This document shows positions 25,421 through 59,920 of a stretch of DNA of 64,000 nucleotides, in pieces. Both the position numbers and the translations under genes were made by a program. Source of the stretch: a virus. The notes under the pieces were generated by a model. The model did not search any database, was not told where the DNA came from, and saw nothing but the letters and a program-made list of their open reading frames with translations. The stretch is taken from positions 110,042 through 174,041 of the IMG/VR virus record IMGVR_UViG_3300042887_005324; one strand, 5' to 3'. The stretch's first letter is position 1. The number at the start of each line of letters is the position of its first letter.

Positions 25421-25636
25421 ATGTATTTAATATGTAAAAATAATTTTCAAACATTGAATTCATCCGAATTTACTTTTGAAAAAGGATTAACATATAAAAT
25501 AGAAGTCAACAATTTTTATTGTGATGAGAACATAACATTCCTAATAAATGACATCGAGATATCACTTTCTGTTTTAAAAAATTATTTTGTTAATATCGAA
25601 ACTTGGAGAGATTTACAAATAAAAGAATTATTATGA
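25421..25636 (+). CDS. small hypothetical protein, 71 aa
   Basis: The ATG at 25421 is preferred over an in-frame GTG two codons earlier. The product has no recognised motif. Its stop overlaps the start of the epimerase gene as ATGA, implying coupled translation. Function unknown. Confidence 0.55.
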   Translation: MYLICKNNFQTLNSSEFTFEKGLTYKIEVNNFYCDENITFLINDIEISLSVLKNYFVNIETWRDLQIKELL

Positions 25637-26283
25637 TTCTATCACCTTCAGTCTTATCAGCAGATTTCGCTAATCTACAAAATGATATTGAAATGTTAAA
25701 CAATTCTAAATGTGATTGGCTTCACATAGATATAATGGACGGTGTATTTGTACCTAACATATCTTTTGGTATTCCAGTATTAAAATCAATAAAAAAACAC
25801 TCTAATAAAATTCTGGATGTTCATCTAATGATTGTTGAACCAGAAAAATGGATAAGTGAATTCAGAGACGCTGGTGCAGATATTTTAACAGTACATTACG
25901 AATGTTCACCACATTTACATAGAACTATTGATGCAATCAAAAAAAGTGGTATGAAAGCTGGTGTAGCTATCAATCCACATACACCAGTTAGTGTATTAGA
26001 AGAGATATTATCTGAAGTTGATTTAATTTTGGTTATGAGTGTGAATCCTGGCTTTGGCGGCCAATCCTTCATAGAAAATACATATAATAAAGTTTTATCT
26101 CTAAGTAAGTTGATTGATTCAAAAAACACTAAGACAAGACCAATAATTCAAGTAGATGGTGGTGTAAATTTAGATAATGCAAGTAAACTAATTAGTAGTG
26201 GAGCTAATGCATTAGTAGCTGGAAATTCTATATTCAATACAAAGAACCCAATAGATGTAATTTCAGAATTTAAATCGATTTAA
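25633..26283 (+). CDS. rpe: ribulose-phosphate 3-epimerase
   Basis: 216 aa from the ATG at 25633, the usual length. The family motifs are all present: SPSVLSADF at the start, HIDIMDGVFVPN with metal-binding His and Asp, DVHLM with the second metal His, MSVNPGFGGQ phosphate-binding loop, and QVDGGV with the catalytic Asp, followed by GANALVAGNSIF. The enzyme interconverts ribulose-5-P and xylulose-5-P in the pentose phosphate pathway. In a phage it is an auxiliary metabolic gene that could shift carbon towards or from ribose-5-P for nucleotide synthesis. It appears intact and active. Confidence 0.95.
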   Translation: MILSPSVLSADFANLQNDIEMLNNSKCDWLHIDIMDGVFVPNISFGIPVLKSIKKHSNKILDVHLMIVEPEKWISEFRDAGADILTVHYECSPHLHRTIDAIKKSGMKAGVAINPHTPVSVLEEILSEVDLILVMSVNPGFGGQSFIENTYNKVLSLSKLIDSKNTKTRPIIQVDGGVNLDNASKLISSGANALVAGNSIFNTKNPIDVISEFKSI

Positions 26284-30023: not shown

Positions 30024-30641
30024 ATGTATAAAATTGGACTATCAGGAAACTTCTATTCTGGTTATGATCAAATCTCAAAAATGTTTCAAAGTCAAGGAAT
30101 ATTAGTATTTGATGCAGATACTATATTAAGGTTTATGGTGAATTACTCACCTAAACACATCAAATTAATAAAACAATCATTTGGTGACTCAATTTATAAT
30201 TTTGGATTGCTCGATATGAAACTACTTCAATCAAATAAAGACTTTGATAAAGTATTAGATATTCTACAAACTGACTTAATGAAGGCTTACGAAAAGTGGA
30301 GAATTAATAACTGGAATGCTGTTTATACTATTTTCAAATCTCAAATCTTATTTGAAAGAAAAATAAATCAATCTATGGACTTTAATATATCAGTCTATAA
30401 ACCATCAATTGAAAGACGATATGAGATACAAGAAAAAACTTCTATTCCAATATCAACAATTGATCATATTCTTAGAAATGAAATGAGTGAGCTTGATAAA
30501 AATCAAAAATCAGATTTTGTAATTCACAACTATTCTTTTCATGATATAAAGAAGCAATTGGAGAATATTAACAAAGCAATTCTGAAAAAGAATTACCACT
30601 CTGATGATTCATATCAAAGTGTTAAAAGTATGTTTACTTAG
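30024..30641 (+). CDS. dephospho-CoA kinase-like (CoaE/gp1-fold) protein with degenerate P-loop
   Basis: 205 aa. The N-terminus IGLSGNFYSGYDQ aligns with the CoaE P-loop (GLTGNIGSGKST), followed by FDADTILR (CoaE: DAD.IAR) and, near the C-terminus, a RYEIQ..(I)..LRNEMSELDKNQKSDFVIHN segment like the CoaE LID and DFVIDN region. The P-loop Lys and Ser/Thr are replaced by Tyr and Asp, so normal ATP binding is doubtful. It could be a repurposed or pseudo-kinase, or a phage nucleotide kinase relative. Host-type promoter upstream. The final codons overlap the convergent gene by 8 nt. Confidence 0.7.
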   Translation: MYKIGLSGNFYSGYDQISKMFQSQGILVFDADTILRFMVNYSPKHIKLIKQSFGDSIYNFGLLDMKLLQSNKDFDKVLDILQTDLMKAYEKWRINNWNAVYTIFKSQILFERKINQSMDFNISVYKPSIERRYEIQEKTSIPISTIDHILRNEMSELDKNQKSDFVIHNYSFHDIKKQLENINKAILKKNYHSDDSYQSVKSMFT

Positions 30642-31405: not shown

Positions 31406-32129
31406 TCTTAAAAACACAACTAAACTCGTAAAAGGTGGTATTTACGATGTACTAAAATTACAGAATCAAAACACATCAACATCTCGTTACTTTAGACCAA
31501 GAGTTTTAATAAAACTTAATGACTCACAGTCTTTTTGGTTTAATGTCAACAATTTCAAATTAGAGAATGGAAATGACTTACCAGAGACGAATTGGGTAGA
31601 TTCATCCATTGATACAACGAACTATTCTGATCTAAGAATGACATCGACATATAAACCAAAAGTTGGTGAATATGTTGTTTACACTGCTAACTCACATAAA
31701 ACACTTAATTATAATAGCATCTATAAGATTGTTGATGTTAGAACTCAAGAAAAAACAAACTACGGAAGAACTTATACTTGGTTTGAAATTAAGGTAGAAG
31801 GCTCAAGTAGATTTTTAAGAACATACTCTTTTAGAAGATGCTCTGCACAAGAACTAAGAGAAATAAGTTTGAGTGAAGTCATGGAACTTCCTACTGGTGT
31901 TTCAAAAGTAGATAAATCTATCAGAAACATAGACAAACTAAGTGAAACAGATAAACAGAAACAAATCGCTAGATTGTTTATGTGGTCTTGTATTGACACT
32001 ACAAGAAATAATCTATCAATTATTGACTGGGCTTGTACAAAATTAGGCACTAAACTTTCAGTAAAACCAACTGACTTTGAATTCTTGAATACAATGACTT
32101 TCAAAGAAATATCCGAAATATTTGATTAA
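31392..32129 (+). CDS. hypothetical protein, 245 aa
   Basis: Starts 14 nt inside the L7/L12-like gene, so probably coupled. The N-terminal half is beta-rich with two SH3-like stretches (VKGGIYDVLKL and KVGEYVVYTANSHKT...YKIVDV), the C-terminal half helical. No family is recognised. Its partnership with the L7/L12-like protein is worth noting but its role is unknown. Convergent with the methyltransferase gene (4 nt overlap). Confidence 0.65.
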   Translation: MKVISLKNTTKLVKGGIYDVLKLQNQNTSTSRYFRPRVLIKLNDSQSFWFNVNNFKLENGNDLPETNWVDSSIDTTNYSDLRMTSTYKPKVGEYVVYTANSHKTLNYNSIYKIVDVRTQEKTNYGRTYTWFEIKVEGSSRFLRTYSFRRCSAQELREISLSEVMELPTGVSKVDKSIRNIDKLSETDKQKQIARLFMWSCIDTTRNNLSIIDWACTKLGTKLSVKPTDFEFLNTMTFKEISEIFD

Positions 32130-33794: not shown

Positions 33795-34883
33795 TTATTT
33801 AGCAACTGAAAGAAAAATCTTTCTTGCTGATCTATCAACAGCGATAATTTTTACTTTTACATCATCACCAGCGTTGAACTTCTTTGAAGTCTTTTCTAAT
33901 TCAGATGTGTGAATCAAACCGTTTGTTTCTTCATCAAGAATAACAAGAGCTCCAAAAGGTTTCATATCTTTGATTTTACCATCAATTGTTTGACCAACTT
34001 TGATAGTGTCCCACAAAGACTCACGAAGAATTTGTGTCAAGATAATCTTATCTTTAATGATTTCTTTGATGTAGAATTGGATTTGGAATCCAGGTGTGAT
34101 TTGGTGAATACGATCTGCCCATTCTGGAACGATATTAGTCTTGTGAATCATACCAGTCAAACAATCGTTGAACTCAACGAATACTCCGAACTGAGTTGTA
34201 CCAGTTACATTACCAGTGTAAACAACTCCATACTCAAGTTCTTTGATAGCTTGTGGAATAAGAGTTTGTAGATATTTTCTACGGCTCACAATGTAAGTTC
34301 CTTCTTCTTTAGCAAAAGATTCGATCATTACTTCAAAAGTTTGACCAACAATTGTCTCAGGTGATGATAACTTATTGATACCAGCTAATGTATTTGGCAT
34401 AAATCCTGGTAGAGTAACACCTTCATACTGAATTTCAACTGCGTATCCAGCTGGAGTAAGTTCTTTGACATGAGCAGTGACTGAAACTCCTTCTTCTAAG
34501 TTAGTGAGGCTAGCTCTTGCTTTAGACTCATAAAGTTCAGATAAACTTCCTTTGATTAAATAATCGTTTTCATCAACTTCACTAATCAAAACATCGATTG
34601 ATTCACCGATATTTGTATTTTTCAAATATTTAGCTTCACTTGGTCGGTTTTCAATTCGAACATAATCTTTGAATCCACCGTCAAAAGTGAAAGAATCACC
34701 AGAAATACCTACATATTTCACATTCATTACAGCACCTTGTATTGGTGTTCTCATTTCATAAGCATCGTATAGAGATGCCATTTTTTGTCTTTCTTGTTGA
34801 TAAGCTTCGACTGCATTTACATCGAGAACATCAACATCATCAAAATCCATCATTCGTGGATCGTACTTTAATTTTTTACCCAT
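33795..34883 (-). CDS. ribosomal protein S1-like RNA-binding protein (about four S1 domains)
   Basis: 362 aa. After a ~45-residue leader the protein has tandem OB-fold S1-type repeats (about 45-115, 128-210, 219-285, 292-360). The third and fourth are clearest: VVYTGNVTGTTQFGVFVEF then GMIHKTNIVPEW; VGQTIDGKIKDMKPFGALV then GLIHTSEL and KVKIIAVDRSARKIFLS. Host bS1 of Bacteroidota usually has more domains and about 600 aa. It may bind mRNA or replace/compete with host S1 on the 30S subunit, or act as a stand-alone RNA chaperone. Expressed from its own transcription unit with terminator. Confidence 0.85.
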   Translation of the reverse strand: MGKKLKYDPRMMDFDDVDVLDVNAVEAYQQERQKMASLYDAYEMRTPIQGAVMNVKYVGISGDSFTFDGGFKDYVRIENRPSEAKYLKNTNIGESIDVLISEVDENDYLIKGSLSELYESKARASLTNLEEGVSVTAHVKELTPAGYAVEIQYEGVTLPGFMPNTLAGINKLSSPETIVGQTFEVMIESFAKEEGTYIVSRRKYLQTLIPQAIKELEYGVVYTGNVTGTTQFGVFVEFNDCLTGMIHKTNIVPEWADRIHQITPGFQIQFYIKEIIKDKIILTQILRESLWDTIKVGQTIDGKIKDMKPFGALVILDEETNGLIHTSELEKTSKKFNAGDDVKVKIIAVDRSARKIFLSVAK

Positions 34884-49685: not shown

Positions 49686-50114
49686 ATGATTGTTAATAGA
49701 AAAGCGAGATTTGAATATCATATTCTCAAAGAATACACGGCTGGTATACAACTTTTAGGGTCTGAGGTTAAATCTCTACGGTCTTCTAATGCTAATATCT
49801 CAGAGTCTTATTGTTATATTTGGAATAATGAGATTTTCGTAAAAAATATGTTTATTTCAAAATACGAAGAATCATCTTGGTTGAATCATGATGAAAGAAG
49901 AGACAGAAAATTATTACTCAATAAGTCCGAAATAAGAGAGATTGTTAAATTGAATCAAGATAATGGTGTTACCATTATTCCACTTGAATTATTTATTGTT
50001 AATGGTAGATTCAAATTAAAAATTGGTGTAGCAAAAGGTAAGAAGAATTTTGACAAAAGGCAGTCTATAAAGGAAAGAGAAGTTAAAAGAGAGATTTCAA
50101 GAGACTATAAATAA
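49686..50114 (+). CDS. smpB: SmpB, tmRNA-binding ribosome-rescue protein
   Basis: 142 aa, close to full bacterial length. NRKARFEYHILKEYTAGIQL with GSEVKSLRSSNANISESYCY is the conserved OB-fold core that binds the tRNA-like domain of tmRNA; ELFIVNGRFKLKIGVAKGKK and the C-terminal basic tail (DKRQSIKEREVKREISRDYK) that enters the mRNA channel are also intact. In bacteria SmpB with tmRNA releases stalled ribosomes. No tmRNA gene is recognised in the window, so it may use host tmRNA. Own TATATTTG promoter. Confidence 0.93.
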   Translation: MIVNRKARFEYHILKEYTAGIQLLGSEVKSLRSSNANISESYCYIWNNEIFVKNMFISKYEESSWLNHDERRDRKLLLNKSEIREIVKLNQDNGVTIIPLELFIVNGRFKLKIGVAKGKKNFDKRQSIKEREVKREISRDYK

Positions 50115-51375: not shown

Positions 51376-52003
51376 AGTATGTTAGAGGTACTTTATACTT
51401 TAATTTCTTTTCTAAATCACCGATAGATAATTCTTGACAATATTTATCTGCATCTTTAGGTACATTTGCAAACCAAAGAGCATGTGTTACTTTTTTTGTA
51501 GATAGTGAGACTACAACTTTCCAACAATAATCTGGTACATAAACATTATTACCAATCTTTTTATTTGAAAATACACCACCACATATAACTAAAAGTGAGT
51601 CTGTTTGTGATTCTTGTCTGATTTGTGTTTCCCACTTCTTCCAGATTCCTCTATTTAGATTTGGGTATTGAGGTAAACAATTATAAAATCTGAATGTTTT
51701 CTCATCTTTGACACAATCAAAAGCAAAATCAGCAGCGTTTGCTAAGTGACCCATATCAAAACCACTACCAGCATAATCTTTATCAGTAGCCATAGGTATT
51801 TTTGTATCATTCTTAAACTTAAATCCAGCTCTACTACAATTACCACCACCTTTGTAAACTTTATAAGCTAAATAAACTGGTTCTTTAATATCAATATCAA
51901 AGTAAGACTTGTAAAAACCAGTATTGATTACTGTATCTATTCCTTGTGAAAAGGAAATTATGGATACAAAAATAGTAATTAAAAGTGAAATTATTTTTTT
52001 CAT
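51374..52003 (-). CDS. secreted DNA/RNA non-specific endonuclease (NUC1-like)
   Basis: 209 aa. MKKIISLLITIFVSIISFSQ is a signal peptide ending in the Ser-Gln typical of Bacteroidota. The catalytic region has DMGHLANAADF (canonical DRGH, here with Met for Arg) with the catalytic His, then NLNRGIWKKWE with the metal-binding Asn and Glu. Such nucleases are periplasmic or extracellular. In a phage, a periplasmic DNase could destroy incoming DNA (superinfection exclusion) or scavenge nucleotides after lysis. Overlaps the upstream gene by 4 nt (ATGA). Confidence 0.85.
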   Translation of the reverse strand: MKKIISLLITIFVSIISFSQGIDTVINTGFYKSYFDIDIKEPVYLAYKVYKGGGNCSRAGFKFKNDTKIPMATDKDYAGSGFDMGHLANAADFAFDCVKDEKTFRFYNCLPQYPNLNRGIWKKWETQIRQESQTDSLLVICGGVFSNKKIGNNVYVPDYCWKVVVSLSTKKVTHALWFANVPKDADKYCQELSIGDLEKKLKYKVPLTY

Positions 52004-52386
52004 ATTCTTCTGTTGTTATTTATTGGCATATCAGAGACAACTTGAACTTGTATTCCGAAATTATGACCATCTACATCTAAATCTCGATATTCAGTATTAG
52101 AATAGTTGATATTATTATTATCAAAAGTTATTGATTTTGGCCCATATCTTCTTTGATGTTCTCTTGCTCTTTGAGATTCGATTTCTCTTTGTTGAGCTGC
52201 AAACATCTCATCTACCGTCATATTATTATACGGGTTATCTAGCTGTGGATTTGGTATTGGATTATTAAACTCAGTTTTATAACCATACTTAGCAAGAAGA
52301 TTTGCTGCTTCACTACTTGTAACTTCAGTTGATTTAGTATCAACTTGTTGTGGCTCGATTAGTCTTACTTCAGGTCTATTATACAT
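52000..52386 (-). CDS. hypothetical protein, 128 aa
   Basis: Asn/Gln/Arg-rich with SSEAANLLAKYGYKTEF and a charged helix AAQQREIESQRAREHQRR; no signal peptide. Its stop overlaps the nuclease start, so the two are co-expressed. A TTTAATATATAG box lies upstream. Could be a minor virion or assembly protein; unknown. Confidence 0.6.
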   Translation of the reverse strand: MYNRPEVRLIEPQQVDTKSTEVTSSEAANLLAKYGYKTEFNNPIPNPQLDNPYNNMTVDEMFAAQQREIESQRAREHQRRYGPKSITFDNNNINYSNTEYRDLDVDGHNFGIQVQVVSDMPINNNRRI

Positions 52387-52436: not shown

Positions 52437-52444
52437 TATTTTTG
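52437..52444 (+). promoter_or_regulatory. Bacteroidota-type -7 promoter box for the tRNA (TATTTTTG)
   Basis: 18 nt before the first tRNA base; suitable for a short 5' leader. Confidence 0.55.
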
Positions 52445-52462
52445 TAATATATACACATACAT

Positions 52463-52534
52463 TGCGGGATAGAGCAGAGGTAGCTCGCCAGGCTCATAAC
52501 CTGGAGGTCATTGGTTCAAATCCAGTTCCCGCTA
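52463..52534 (+). tRNA. initiator-type tRNA-Met (CAU)
   Basis: Folds as a full cloverleaf: acceptor TGCGGGA/TCCCGCT with only position 1:72 unpaired (T-T), D stem GAGC/GCTC with A11:T24, anticodon stem CCAGG/CCTGG around CTCATAA, T stem ATTGG/CCAGT with loop TTCAAAT. An unpaired 1:72 and the A11:U24 pair are hallmarks of bacterial initiator tRNA, and the anticodon is CAU. The first of the three G:C pairs normally next to the anticodon loop is A29:T41 here. CCA is not encoded. An elongator Met or Ile2 tRNA is less likely because of A11:U24 and the 1:72 mismatch. Confidence 0.9.
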
Positions 52535-52542
52535 CAAGATAT

Positions 52543-52570
52543 AATCCAATCAAATTGATTGGATTTTTTC
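52543..52570 (+). terminator. intrinsic terminator after the tRNA
   Basis: AATCCAATC/GATTGGATT stem with T-run, 8 nt after the tRNA; shows the tRNA is a single-gene transcription unit. Confidence 0.88.
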
Positions 52571-52612: not shown

Positions 52613-55600
52613 TTAAATTTCAGGGAATTTTCTTTCAAATGGTTTATTAATTGTTAAATACTTTTCTAAAAATCCATATCCAGAAACACCGAGATCTGTG
52701 AGAGAACTTGGTTGACCCGTAATATAAGTAACATTCAAAGTGTCAGTCGCATCAAAATTATGTATACTTCTAGAAACTAAACTCACATTTGAAAGTGTAT
52801 CTGGAGAGGACAAAACCTCACCGAATCTCTCAGTATCAATATAAAATATACAATCATCTATCGTCACTTGCTCAGTAGAATTTCCATCCGGATCTCCAGA
52901 ATACAAAACATATGCCTGTGGTGCAGGATTACCTTCAACCTGATTCAGTAGGTAGACTGCTTGACTATTTCTAAGTTTAAGTCTGTTAGAATCAGTTGTC
53001 AAATTTTTATAGTAAAAGAATCCAATTAATCCAAAAGATTGTGGTCTTAAATTCATCAGAAACTGACAATTATCAAAAGTCAGATAAACCGAACCACTGC
53101 CATTATCAACATAAAAACCAGTATATTCAGTCTGACCACCATCTGATGTTATTTCATCATTAAAGTCAAAATAACAGTTTTTTGCAGATAGAGTTGCGAG
53201 TGTATTTTTACTACCAACTTGAAAGTAAAAACAACAAGTAGGACTGATAGCTGCTGAAATATTCTGATAGACAGATACATTTTCTAAATAAATACTTGAA
53301 CCAGATCCAGCTGATGAGAATCCTCTTCTGTCAACAAAAATAGAAGAGTTTGAGTCATCAGAAATAATCTTTAGTATAGAATTGTTTAAGATGAATGTAA
53401 AAGAACCACCTGTAAGTTTCAGATGGACATTTGGCTTTAAGTATATAGTCAAATTTTGATTAGTTAGAGTAGTCGTACCGAGTACATAGTCATAAGTCGG
53501 TGTTGAGGTTTCAAAAGAAGTACCTGGATAGACTTCAACTACAGAATTTGTAAAAGAAGAAGCAGTAGCAATCGCAGCATCAAGTGTTCTAAAAGGTAGA
53601 TTGATATTACCCACAACAGCAGTTGAGTTATCACCGTTAGGGTGAACATAAATAATATTTCTATAAAGAAAAGATGAGCCTCCAGCACCAGCAGGACCTT
53701 GTGGACCAGTAGGTCCTTGAGTGCCTGAACCAGTTCCGCCTCCAGCAGGTCCTTGAACACCTTGTGGACCAGTTGGACCCTGTGTTCCATTACTTCCATT
53801 TGAACCTTGTGGTCCAGTTACACCCTGTGGACCAGTTGTACCCTGTGTTCCATTAGTTCCATTCGAACCTTGAGGACCAGTCGCACCTTGTGTACCACTT
53901 GTTCCTGACGGACCAGTTGGTCCTTGTGGACCTTGAAATCCTTGATCCCCTTGAGGTCCAGTTGGTCCTTGATTACCTTGATTACCTTGAAATCCTTGTG
54001 GACCAGTTGGTCCTTGACTTCCAAGTGTAGACCAAGTGGTTCCATCAAAATAACTAAATCCAATTAAGTCAGTATCATAAACAAGTAAGCCAGATGTTGG
54101 TAAAGATATTAAATACTTTTGACTGGATGTCATTCTTGGAACTAAGAATCCTTTTGTAGTTGATTCTAAAGTTAAAATTGAGCTAGTTGGACCACTAGAA
54201 GTTCCAACTACAATGTTTCCTATAGAATTAATTCGTGCTCTTTCTAAAGGTGTACCAAGTGGATTACCGGTTCTGAAAATTATATCTTTTAGATTTGTAG
54301 CTGGACTAGTATCTCGTGTTTGTATGTAAAGGTGGTCATCTGTATTTGGATAAATTACAAATGCTTGTAAAGTTGGAGTTATAACTGAATTATTAACGAC
54401 TGCAGTTCCATTTACAGTAAGTGCAAAACCTGGTAAAGGATCACCTATACCAACTCTACCATCTGCAGTAACAATAAAAGGTGTTGAATCTGGATTAGCG
54501 GAGTCTTCAACAACTAAAGCACTCCCTGTCCCAGTTTGTGTAACTCTAAGCATATGTGCTGAACTACTACCTGAGACAATTAAGCCAGATACAGAAGAGT
54601 TATTATTTAATACTTCTAATTTTGATGAAGGCGAATTTGTACCAACTCCTAAACGACTATTAGTTTGATCCCAGTACAAATTAGGACTCTCTTGGACAAC
54701 ATTACCTACTCCTTCAAAGACTATCTGACCTGATGTGCCATTCAGAATTGAAGTTGAACCAACTGTTAAACTATTTGGACCAGTCGCTCCTTGACTACCA
54801 GTTGGACCAACTTGAGTATACATTATCTGTTGAGCAGTTAATATAACTGACGGTACTGCTGGTCTTACTGGGTTCGACTGTGTACCAGTAGACAAAATTG
54901 AAATACTAGTATCAGCTGAACTCCAATATAATTCAACATAGTCATTCGAGTTTAATGTATAGATAAAGTTCCAAGATACTACCTGATCTGTGTTTCCAGA
55001 AATAGAAAACTCAGTATTGGAAGCTGTTGTCGATTGTCCGTTTTTGGCAAACCAAACACTAATTAGTTCAGCATTAGCTGTGCTCTTTGTAAATACTGTT
55101 GAAAATTGAATATTGTAGGTTCCAGAATGGGCAAAAGTTAGTTTTGTACCATCAACTATTGAAACGCCGTTTGATTCATAAGTATATGATAAAATCATTG
55201 GTCTCGCGATACTCGCAGTTGGATTTAACTGATTAGACAAATCATAGAATGATCCATAATAACCCAAAGCCCCACCAGCTCCTGTTGGTCCAACAGGACC
55301 AGTTGCCCCACTTCCACCACCAACTATAGTTGTTTGATAAAAAACATCTCCTGAATCATTAACAACCATATATTTGGTCGCACCAGATGTAAGTCCAATA
55401 TTATTTATATGCAAGTTAGATAGCCAGGTATTACCATCACCTCTCACATAGAATGTGTTTGATGCTGATCCATTCTGCACAATTAGAACATTATCACTAT
55501 CTGAAGTAGAACCTCTTCTAAATACAACGCCGTCATTCGTTGAATTAGTTAGAATTTCTGGATCACCAGAGTTATTATAAGCTTGTTGTAAAGTAGTTGT

Positions 55601-57646
55601 TGAAATTCCACCGGCCGCTCCAACAGTTTCCCCAAATTTAGAAACTAATAAAAATTTAGCCTGCAGTGGGTCGGATAAATTAGTAGCATTAGATACAACT
55701 GATAATATACCAATCAAAATACCATTATCTCTAAAGTTTGAAAATGTATCAAAGACTTCATCTTGTACAGATGCTATAGCAGTTGTTAAGTCAGCATATC
55801 TTGTTTGACCATATTGAACTCTAAATATTCCATTTTGAATTAAAAATATTCTTTGGTTAGTTGCTTGTTTTGTAGGGCTACCAACTGTGTCTAAAACTCC
55901 TGCATTATCCCATCGACCAGGGTCGATTGCAGTTGTATTTGAATAAGTACCACCTGTTCTTGTTCTATATTGAAAAGTGACTGGTAATTTACCAGGAATT
56001 GTAATACTACTTGGGTTAAGTACATCAGTCATATAACCAATACCTAATCCCCAAAGACTACCAGCAGATGTTTGAAAAGATAGAGTAGCTCCTATATAAG
56101 AAGGGTAAACACCGTTGTTTATCAACTTGATAGGCGTAAACATATCTCTAAGCTGAGTTGCGGGTGATATATCTATATCAGGTTCAGGAAAGACATTTGC
56201 TATAGTTGCTTTATTGGCATGTCCGACTTTACCTAGATAGATATTTTCTCTTCGTTGTCTTGGTGTTGGAAAACTTGTTTGTTGAATTATTGAACCAGTT
56301 GAATTGACCAAAAAGTAAGTTTCTGTAGCAGTTGTTATATTACTTAAAGTGATACCAGTTCCACCAGCATACTCAATCAATTTAACAGTAGGTCTTGTTG
56401 AACTAGTTGGACCTGCATTATCAACTATCCAACCTTTCATAGCTGTGATGTTAATACTTGTTGAAGATGCTGTTAAAAATCCGGGTGTTTGAAAGTAAAA
56501 AATACCACCAGATATAACATTACCTTCTAATATATTTCTTTGCCTATCTGTTATGGATAGATTTAAATTTTCATTATTTACTGTAACATAAATAGAGCCA
56601 TTGGATCCAGTTGCTATTACATAACCAACAACATTTGCTCTCGAAGAAAAAGAGAGTCCATAATAATCAGCCGTAAACTTACCAGGAACAGTGTCAGAAA
56701 GATAAAGAGCATCTCCTGGTGTCACATTAGTCAATACTAATGAAGTTGTATCTACATTAGTTATAATACCATTTGTAGTTATATTTCCAATTTGACCACT
56801 TACTATATCTTCTGATGCGACAGCATTTACAGTGGCGTTTAGATCTGGGTTAGAAAGTGATAAGACAATTGTAGGCAGCCCAGCAGTTGATCCGTTAATA
56901 TGTACACATTGACCTCTACTTATTGTAGCACCAGAAATATTATATGCTCTTAGAAATAGTTCTTTACCAATGTGAATTGGTGAATTAAGTACATTATCTG
57001 AGTAGTAGGCAAGTGCTTCTTCAGATGGATCATAAAATAATCTATTTGGAGCTGGTACAACAGACTGAGTAAGAAAGTCAATATATGATAAATTTTGAAT
57101 TTTATCTGAATAAAGACTTAATGTTTCTCCTATTTGTAATTTCTGTCCATCAAAAGTCAAATTAGACTCTGCATTTGCAGAATTAGAACCAGAAGCAGTT
57201 AATATTCTTGTGGGAGCCGTATTGTATATAGAGGTAAATCCGGAACCGGTTGGTCCTTGATTACCTTGAAATCCTTGGGGACCGGTAATGCCATAACTAA
57301 TTGGTGACCAAACCGTTGGTGTCACACTTGGAGTACCAAATGGTGGACCTGGTAAAGAATTACTGCTATTAGTTGATATGTAAGCTACTCCATTATAAGT
57401 TACGATTTCAAGTGGAAAGTAAACCATAGAATTATCCCAGGTTCCAACGAAAGAAACAGAGTCACCACTAGGACCAGTAGGTCCGATCGGACCTGTAAAT
57501 CCTTGTGGTCCAACTGAGGCGGTTCCAAGTCCTAAATCTAATAAATTACCAAATCCATCATAATATGTGTCTGGAGTACCGTGAATAACTTGTACCAATC
57601 TACCGTAGGTAGATGAGGCAGTTTTACCGGTCAAACTATAAGTCAT
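52613..57646 (-). CDS. large modular fibre protein with collagen-like tracts and a beta-helix tip
   Basis: 1677 aa. The N-terminus (RLVQVIHGTPDTYYDGFGN then LLDLG) parallels that of the 2244-aa fibre. Short Gly-X-Y tracts at about 47-62 and 121-135, a long beta-rich middle, head-fibre modules (LYWDQTNSRLGVGTNSPS, TTKGFLVPRMTSSQK) near 960-1195, a longer Gly-X-Y tract (about 1205-1320), and a C-terminal right-handed beta-helix (from IYVHPNGDNS near 1327), as in tailspikes that bind or cut polysaccharide. Probably a second receptor-binding fibre or tailspike. No obvious catalytic site. Confidence 0.82.
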   Translation of the reverse strand: MTYSLTGKTASSTYGRLVQVIHGTPDTYYDGFGNLLDLGLGTASVGPQGFTGPIGPTGPSGDSVSFVGTWDNSMVYFPLEIVTYNGVAYISTNSSNSLPGPPFGTPSVTPTVWSPISYGITGPQGFQGNQGPTGSGFTSIYNTAPTRILTASGSNSANAESNLTFDGQKLQIGETLSLYSDKIQNLSYIDFLTQSVVPAPNRLFYDPSEEALAYYSDNVLNSPIHIGKELFLRAYNISGATISRGQCVHINGSTAGLPTIVLSLSNPDLNATVNAVASEDIVSGQIGNITTNGIITNVDTTSLVLTNVTPGDALYLSDTVPGKFTADYYGLSFSSRANVVGYVIATGSNGSIYVTVNNENLNLSITDRQRNILEGNVISGGIFYFQTPGFLTASSTSINITAMKGWIVDNAGPTSSTRPTVKLIEYAGGTGITLSNITTATETYFLVNSTGSIIQQTSFPTPRQRRENIYLGKVGHANKATIANVFPEPDIDISPATQLRDMFTPIKLINNGVYPSYIGATLSFQTSAGSLWGLGIGYMTDVLNPSSITIPGKLPVTFQYRTRTGGTYSNTTAIDPGRWDNAGVLDTVGSPTKQATNQRIFLIQNGIFRVQYGQTRYADLTTAIASVQDEVFDTFSNFRDNGILIGILSVVSNATNLSDPLQAKFLLVSKFGETVGAAGGISTTTLQQAYNNSGDPEILTNSTNDGVVFRRGSTSDSDNVLIVQNGSASNTFYVRGDGNTWLSNLHINNIGLTSGATKYMVVNDSGDVFYQTTIVGGGSGATGPVGPTGAGGALGYYGSFYDLSNQLNPTASIARPMILSYTYESNGVSIVDGTKLTFAHSGTYNIQFSTVFTKSTANAELISVWFAKNGQSTTASNTEFSISGNTDQVVSWNFIYTLNSNDYVELYWSSADTSISILSTGTQSNPVRPAVPSVILTAQQIMYTQVGPTGSQGATGPNSLTVGSTSILNGTSGQIVFEGVGNVVQESPNLYWDQTNSRLGVGTNSPSSKLEVLNNNSSVSGLIVSGSSSAHMLRVTQTGTGSALVVEDSANPDSTPFIVTADGRVGIGDPLPGFALTVNGTAVVNNSVITPTLQAFVIYPNTDDHLYIQTRDTSPATNLKDIIFRTGNPLGTPLERARINSIGNIVVGTSSGPTSSILTLESTTKGFLVPRMTSSQKYLISLPTSGLLVYDTDLIGFSYFDGTTWSTLGSQGPTGPQGFQGNQGNQGPTGPQGDQGFQGPQGPTGPSGTSGTQGATGPQGSNGTNGTQGTTGPQGVTGPQGSNGSNGTQGPTGPQGVQGPAGGGTGSGTQGPTGPQGPAGAGGSSFLYRNIIYVHPNGDNSTAVVGNINLPFRTLDAAIATASSFTNSVVEVYPGTSFETSTPTYDYVLGTTTLTNQNLTIYLKPNVHLKLTGGSFTFILNNSILKIISDDSNSSIFVDRRGFSSAGSGSSIYLENVSVYQNISAAISPTCCFYFQVGSKNTLATLSAKNCYFDFNDEITSDGGQTEYTGFYVDNGSGSVYLTFDNCQFLMNLRPQSFGLIGFFYYKNLTTDSNRLKLRNSQAVYLLNQVEGNPAPQAYVLYSGDPDGNSTEQVTIDDCIFYIDTERFGEVLSSPDTLSNVSLVSRSIHNFDATDTLNVTYITGQPSSLTDLGVSGYGFLEKYLTINKPFERKFPEI
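53690..54020 (-). repeat. Gly-X-Y collagen-like repeat tract
   Basis: About 110 residues of GPQ/GPT/GSN triplets close to the C-terminal beta-helix of the 1677-aa fibre. Confidence 0.88.
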
Positions 57647-59386: not shown

Positions 59387-59920
59387 ATGGTTATCAAATC
59401 TTATCAGACTTTCTTAGAATCTAAAAACTATCGTTATGGATGTGTGATGGTTTATTTAGATATTCCTAACTGGGAAGAAATTACTTCAATTATTGACAAA
59501 GAAGATTTATATAAACCAGAGGATAGAAAATATGGTATTCAAAAAAATCCTCATGTTACAATATTATATGGACTACACTCAGATGTAAAAGATGAAGATG
59601 TTATTAAAATATTTGATAATATTAAGTCAAGTGATTTCAAAATAAATGTTAATAAAATAGATTCATTTAATAATCAAGAATTTGATGTAGTAAAAATGAG
59701 TGTTAGATGTGATAAACTTTTTGAGTTGAATAAAGAACTAATGAAACTACCACACACAACAGATTATCCAGACTATAAGCCACATATAACTTTAGCTTAT
59801 GTGTTACCAGGAAAGTCTGAAAAATACTTACAGAACAATTACAATTATACATTTGAAAATATTAAAAATATAATTTATTCTAAATCAAATGGTGAGAAAA
59901 TTCAAATTAAACTTAATTAA
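59387..59920 (+). CDS. 2H phosphoesterase (LigT-like; possible anti-CBASS Acb1 relative)
   Basis: 177 aa with two HxT motifs, HVTILYGL (residues 56-63) and HITLAYVLPG (near 132-141), the paired catalytic histidines of the 2H phosphoesterase superfamily. The N-terminal SYQTFLESK..YGCVMVYLDI..W pattern is typical of T4-type phage members. Phage 2H enzymes include Acb1, which degrades CBASS cyclic nucleotides, and RNA-ligase/cyclic-phosphodiesterase types. Cytoplasmic. The specific substrate is inference. Confidence 0.8.
   Translation: MVIKSYQTFLESKNYRYGCVMVYLDIPNWEEITSIIDKEDLYKPEDRKYGIQKNPHVTILYGLHSDVKDEDVIKIFDNIKSSDFKINVNKIDSFNNQEFDVVKMSVRCDKLFELNKELMKLPHTTDYPDYKPHITLAYVLPGKSEKYLQNNYNYTFENIKNIIYSKSNGEKIQIKLN

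Follow-up and report, generated by a model that had tools for sequence, protein, structure and literature searches.

The tRNA locus

The stretch analysed here (the window) is 64 kb of viral DNA, corresponding to bases 110042-174041 of a 174,041-bp record. ARAGORN and Rfam RF00005 agree on a single tRNA in the window, at 52463-52534/5 on the plus strand (RF00005 64.4 bits, E = 1.1e-11), with the sequence UGCGGGAUAGAGCAGAGGUAGCUCGCCAGGCUCAUAACCUGGAGGUCAUUGGUUCAAAUCCAGUUCCCGCUA. It sits in a 226-bp gap between two genes on the minus strand, 52000-52386 and 52613-57646 (table 1). The minimum free energy fold is a cloverleaf in which 1:72 is open (-25.7 kcal/mol): U1 (52463) faces U72 (52533) without a Watson-Crick pair, a formylation determinant of bacterial initiators. 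Positions A11 (52473) and U24 (52485) set a purine against a pyrimidine, as in bacterial initiators. The anticodon stem consists of C27:G43, C28:G42, A29:U41, G30:C40 and G31:C39, so that the run of three G:C pairs at 29-31:39-41 is incomplete, with two of the three pairs (G30:C40 and G31:C39) present, while the anticodon loop, CUCAUAA, is unchanged. Position 73 is A, and CCA is not encoded, the next bases in the DNA being CAA.

Table 1. Features discussed in the text, in window coordinates.
Feature	Position	Strand	Basis
Initiator-type tRNA (CAU), positions 1-73	52463..52534	+	ARAGORN, Rfam RF00005, covariance models, fold
CAU anticodon (34-36)	52495..52497	+	sequence, ARAGORN
A29:U41 anticodon-stem pair, G:C in likely host phylum	A29 52490, U41 52502	+	sequence, Bacteroidota and phage samples
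Possible promoter -7 box TATTTTTG (TAnnTTTG)	52437..52444	+	18 nt upstream of tRNA; not above chance
Intrinsic terminator: 10-bp hairpin, 3-nt loop (52543-52565) and T-run	52543..52570	+	fold, terminator scan
Divergent neighbour gene, 128 aa, function unknown	52000..52386	-	homologue in LR745206 (30% identity, E 2.5e-12)
Convergent 1677-aa gene, collagen repeats, probably tail-fibre	52613-57646	-	
SmpB (ribosome rescue)	49686..50114	+	PF01668 E 2.9e-54
Protein with two S1 RNA-binding domains	33795..34883	-	PF00575 E 2.4e-21; 60% identical LR745206 homologue

The first-pass annotation had assigned the tRNA its own promoter and terminator. The terminator is confirmed: the hairpin and T-run that follow the tRNA are far more stable than shuffled sequence (fold z = -4.2; none of 200 shuffles equalled it), and two terminator-like sites were found against 0.1 expected. 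On the opposite strand, this hairpin could serve as terminator of the convergent gene. The promoter fared less well. Its TAnnTTTG motif can be read in the sequence, yet its occurrence does not exceed chance expectation: it precedes 5 of 44 window genes, against 8 of 44 when the reverse strand is counted and a mean of 3.2 after shuffling, and no clear -33 partner was seen for the box. This lack of enrichment rules the motif out as proof of a promoter, so that a promoter upstream of the tRNA is possible, and plausible at most.

Identity of the tRNA

Two covariance models were built without the window tRNA, one from 12 bacterial initiators and one from 15 CAU elongator-type tRNAs. The window tRNA scored 96.4 bits on the initiator model and 59.8 on the elongator-type model. 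This comparison had been named beforehand as the check on initiator identity, which it bore out, and the CAU anticodon, unpaired 1:72 and A11:U24 reported in the first pass are all there in the sequence. Because a CAU anticodon is common to initiator, elongator Met and Ile2 tRNAs, we considered whether the molecule might act as an elongator Met or lysidine-modified Ile2 tRNA. Neither Y11:R24, nor a paired 1:72, nor a preference for the elongator model was found, and of the two CAU tRNAs in the record it is the second that is elongator-type; we regard this reading as scarcely credible.

That second CAU tRNA lies outside the window (G000:C1:93382-93454, equivalent to L010:17382-17454, minus strand) and scores the other way round, with 48.7 bits on the initiator model and 79.7 on the elongator-type model. 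Its stem, GCUGA/UCAGC, is like that of tRNA-Ile2, a likeness of the stem alone; among the genes counted, 34% of Ile codons are AUA. The earlier description of the initiator as stand-alone therefore holds for its locus, where it is isolated in the gap and is the sole tRNA of the window, but not for the record as a whole.

Comparison with the initiator of the huge phage LR745206 revealed 62 of 72 identical positions. Pairs 7:66, 28:42 and 49:65 are changed on both sides and still paired, while the 1:72 mismatch is kept as U:U in the window tRNA and C:U in its relative. As far as sequence goes, this comparison shows compensatory changes by which the window tRNA, though diverged from its relative, keeps the marks of a bacterial initiator.

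The carrier phage and its relatives

The major capsid protein of the record is 67% identical to that of LR745206 (634,780 bp), 65% to that of LR756502 (642,428 bp), 49% to that of LR756501 (735 kb) and 30% to those of Lak phages. A tblastn comparison with LR745206 gave 105 ORF matches, mostly collinear, in a list that includes overlapping-frame ORFs. By capsid protein similarity, gene order and genome lengths, the record appears to belong to the Mahaphages, a clade described by Al-Shayeb et al. 2020 (PMC7162821). Its relatives are much larger, and from their size we infer that these 174 kb are probably part of a longer, Mahaphage-like huge-phage genome. Its replication genes and structural genes are T4-like and are those of a large phage.

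No Shine-Dalgarno-like 4-mer was found in the last 20 upstream bases of any of 39 genes, and these bases are 52% A. Upstream regions that are A-rich and lack a Shine-Dalgarno sequence fit Bacteroidota-type hosts, and the phage is predicted to infect Bacteroidota.

Two other genes of the window bear on translation. One encodes SmpB, also found in LR745206, LR756501, LR756502 and LR756504; an Rfam search of the 174-kb record found no tmRNA despite this gene. The other encodes the two-S1-domain protein, a possible initiation helper resembling ribosomal protein S1, judging by its domains. A motif-level search gave no credible deformylase, formyltransferase, IF1 or release factors.

Several further genes were recorded along the way. 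A 2H-phosphoesterase at 59387-59920 (plus strand) of the window has anti-CBASS Acb1 as its best Pfam match (E = 1.5e-10). The window also has genes listed as ribulose-phosphate 3-epimerase (25603-26283, plus) and dephospho-CoA kinase (30024-30641, plus). Elsewhere, S-adenosylmethionine synthetase, a cysteine-synthase-like PLP enzyme and a 2-hydroxyacid dehydrogenase are listed at L011:3508-4773 (minus), L011:10202-11071 (plus) and L007:4964-5947 (plus), respectively, and a TROVE-domain (Ro60-like) RNA-binding protein at L008:7445-9007 (plus) is 71% identical to its LR745206 counterpart.

A retained initiator where relatives carry tRNA arrays

Complete relatives encode 27-62 tRNAs each, several of them with initiators. 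LR745206, the closest of these complete genomes, has 56 by Rfam, including a second initiator with U29:A41, and about 55 of its tRNAs lie in arrays between 342 and 422 kb. One array is headed by the initiator at 364,870, 4.2 kb from the homologue (360.7 kb) of the small gene that flanks the window tRNA (52000-52386). The record is largely collinear with LR745206 from 200 to 333 kb (major capsid protein to SmpB), then at the 360.7-kb gene, then from 445 to 452 kb (gp32-like, 446 kb). The corresponding interval measures about 112 kb in LR745206 and about 11 kb in the record, where the initiator is its only tRNA. It looks as though the phage kept its initiator while the surrounding tRNA island disappeared or had never been acquired. 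Since the record is probably a fragment, further tRNAs may exist elsewhere in the genome.

Among the relatives, LR756502 has a homologue of the neighbour gene and tRNA arrays, and a pattern search did not find an initiator in it; in G603 (465 kb), which has 7 tRNAs, the pattern likewise found none. This patchy distribution suggests that the initiator is dispensable. Together with the 27-62 tRNAs of relatives and the difference in interval size, it would suit a tRNA that is a neutral relic of the relatives' island, having survived by accident and doing nothing for the phage today. Against such a relic stand the intact sequence, the compensatory changes, the conserved 1:72 mismatch and the strong terminator after the tRNA, and we find it improbable.

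A tRNA-Cys(GCA)-like element was also noticed at L011:5260-5331 (minus strand), a weak ARAGORN call that Rfam does not accept in the record. ARAGORN calls a tRNA-Cys in LR745206 too, at the collinear place (270,989), and in G603, G612 and G618. This may be an odd tRNA, or an RNA that resembles one, conserved within this group of phages.

Initiator tRNAs in other phages

The first-pass annotation had presented an initiator as unusual in phages, a claim that does not survive. Matches to the window tRNA (E of 1e-3 or better) occur in 432 of 50,697 INPHARED records, several within large tRNA sets; about 20 of the 432 were read by sequence and nearly all had initiator features, while the rest may include other tRNAs. 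An exact 23-base core is present in at least 119 IMG/VR contigs. Phage initiator tRNAs are an already known kind, and are common in phages.

Some also occur by themselves. When 40 initiator-bearing viral records were searched whole, 28 had exactly one tRNA match; as these records were mostly picked for a single tRNA seen near the match, several are fragments and some of the tRNAs lie near a contig end, the count shows that the arrangement exists and gives no frequency. A nearly identical initiator, CGCGGAGUGGAGCAGUUGG..., was seen in 13 IMG/VR contigs (L013, L017, L030, L043, L056, L069, L070, L071, L076, L084, L088, L109 and L129), in several of which it is the sole tRNA, often near the contig end. 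These contigs could come from a single phage family, or the pattern could be an effect of termini.

Transfer RNA genes are frequent attachment sites, and the lone initiators near contig ends in some other viral contigs would be in keeping with a tRNA that marks the integration site of a temperate element. The record, however, has T4-like replication and structural genes that belong to a large phage. No tyrosine-recombinase motif was found in the 174-kb record at motif level, nor any second copy of the 3' part of the tRNA within the window. An attachment-site origin is accordingly disfavoured, and we hold it to be very improbable.

The 29:41 pair

We compared the anticodon stem across 115 distinct viral initiators, a sample that is related by descent and carries no host labels. 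The viral search patterns were mostly free at 27-31 and 39-43, and 29:41 was free in both scans. At 29:41, A:U occurs in 54 of them, G:C in 36, U:A in 24 and C:A in one, so that 69% deviate from G29:C41. By comparison, G30:C40 is present in 113 and G31:C39 in 97, a conservation somewhat inflated by one of the two scans, which demanded G at 30 and 31. Position 1:72 is unpaired in 76%; A11:U24 is invariant, and largely fixed by the search pattern, which required GCUC. The retention of G30:C40, G31:C39 and an open 1:72 across the sample argues that initiator function is selected in phages.

In Bacteroidota, a loose pattern matched 58 of 61 genomes, and all 69 listed copies have GGG/CCC, with A29:U41 in 0 of 69. 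The Bacillota sample has G29:C41 in almost all cases. Many Pseudomonadota rows have A29:U41, these probably being Alphaproteobacteria, and in Patescibacteria A29:U41, U29:A41 and G29:C41 were all seen. Since bacterial initiators with A29:U41 exist in the latter two groups, the full G:C triplet at 29-31:39-41 does not define the family, and it is the covariance-model comparison that settles membership. Because of these native A29:U41 forms we dropped the idea that 29:41 is purely a phage signature, and the viral sample may partly mirror such hosts. The pair, flagged at the outset as a departure from the usual, is unusual in so far as it is absent from the copies sampled in the likely host phylum; it is common in phages and present in some bacteria.

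Among named phages, A29:U41 occurs in GodonK (Gordonia), Myrna (Mycobacterium), Kaldavass (Erwinia), Pan5 (Pseudanabaena) and Lak-B2, and G29:C41 in Daffodil, Alone3, AP1, D479 and MD-2021a. The drift of 29:41 in phage initiators is well supported as an observation, though not as to its cause. We found no report of the pattern in the literature searched, which is weak evidence of novelty, most subscription papers being outside our reach.

In initiation complexes, A1339 of 16S rRNA contacts pair 30:40 and G1338 directly contacts 29:41 (PMC11497404). With 30:40 kept and 29:41 changed, the window tRNA is expected to be a functional initiator held with a slightly altered grip; altered selection by IF3, put forward in the first pass, would be a conjecture.

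What the phage may gain

Our preferred reading, to which we give a probability of about 0.68, is that the window tRNA is a working huge-phage initiator that, during infection, supplements the host's pool of tRNA-fMet or takes its place. After separate transcription, host enzymes would trim the RNA and add CCA, the host methionyl-tRNA synthetase would charge it, and the formyl group would likewise come from the host, the unpaired 1:72 presumably permitting formylation. The tRNA would reach the P site by way of IF2 and through its conserved pairs G30:C40 and G31:C39, and A29:U41 would at most loosen contact with G1338. Phage mRNAs lacking a Shine-Dalgarno sequence could then still be initiated when the host initiator is limiting or attacked, and the phage S1-domain protein and SmpB may act alongside the tRNA.

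The usual explanation of phage tRNAs is codon use, which cannot account for an initiator because internal AUG codons are not decoded by it. A demand on initiation itself is plausible, given the S1-domain protein and SmpB genes of the window and the 39 genes without a Shine-Dalgarno 4-mer. Both proteins agree with a general model in which huge phages take over translation (PMC7162821).

The main rival is a counter-defence role, in which the tRNA would replace host tRNA-fMet destroyed or blocked by, for example, VapC, its altered stem (C27:G43, A29:U41) making it a poor substrate. We know of no tRNA-fMet-targeting toxin for this host. Evasion of anticodon nucleases has been proposed for phage tRNAs, and VapC-LT2 targets tRNA-fMet (see also PMC4105405), but Shigella phages generally do not encode this targeted tRNA (PMC10264068). 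The phage stem is unlike every sampled Bacteroidota initiator at 29:41, which is also the stem position that drifts most in phage initiators; the anticodon loop, however, is unchanged and the stem drift may equally be neutral. On balance we consider this role unlikely.

A broader proposal, which we put forward tentatively and with considerable doubt, is that phage initiators make up a functional class in which the marks of an initiator persist apart from 29:41, which in many has moved to A:U or U:A relative to G:C hosts. Such tRNAs would serve initiation where the host initiator cannot, through altered P-site selection or escape from initiator-cleaving defences, and some phages would keep an initiator alone for this purpose.

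The window tRNA is a real and probably functional initiator. Two points merit follow-up: that it alone is retained where the island is otherwise empty, and that 29:41 in phage initiators has drifted relative to Bacteroidota hosts. The retained gene and the 28 single-tRNA records make the gain to a phage from its own initiator directly testable, and the 29:41 pattern offers a specific handle for doing so.

Comparison with known systems

On the host side, the tRNA-fMet of Flavobacteriaceae L131 shares 61 of 72 positions with the window tRNA, including the CAU anticodon, open 1:72, A11:U24, G30:C40, G31:C39 and A73, but has G29:C41 and U27:A43 where the window tRNA has A29:U41 and C27:G43. The LR745206 initiator likewise has A29:U41 and an open 1:72, and lies close to the homologue of the gene that flanks the window tRNA; it differs in that a tRNA array starts within 400 nt downstream.

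The initiator of Pseudanabaena phage Pan5 has an identical anticodon stem and matches at 65 of 72 positions, in a 46.5-kb genome with two tRNA matches only. Pan5 is, however, an unrelated phage, and its tRNA has A1 opposite U72, and U73. This initiator (ON968456.1 31584-31655; L002:6003-6074) overlaps an annotated gene (31598-31888) whose given product, 'omega transcriptional repressor', is probably a mis-annotation.

Published or annotated tRNA-fMet genes are also found in Erwinia jumbo phage pEa_SNUABM_47 (PMC7760394), which has a larger tRNA set, and in Caulobacter phage CcrBL9, whose pair is U29:A41. Finally, mycobacteriophage Myrna and Gordonia phage GodonK share the anticodon stem with A29:U41, but carry their initiators inside tRNA gene arrays.
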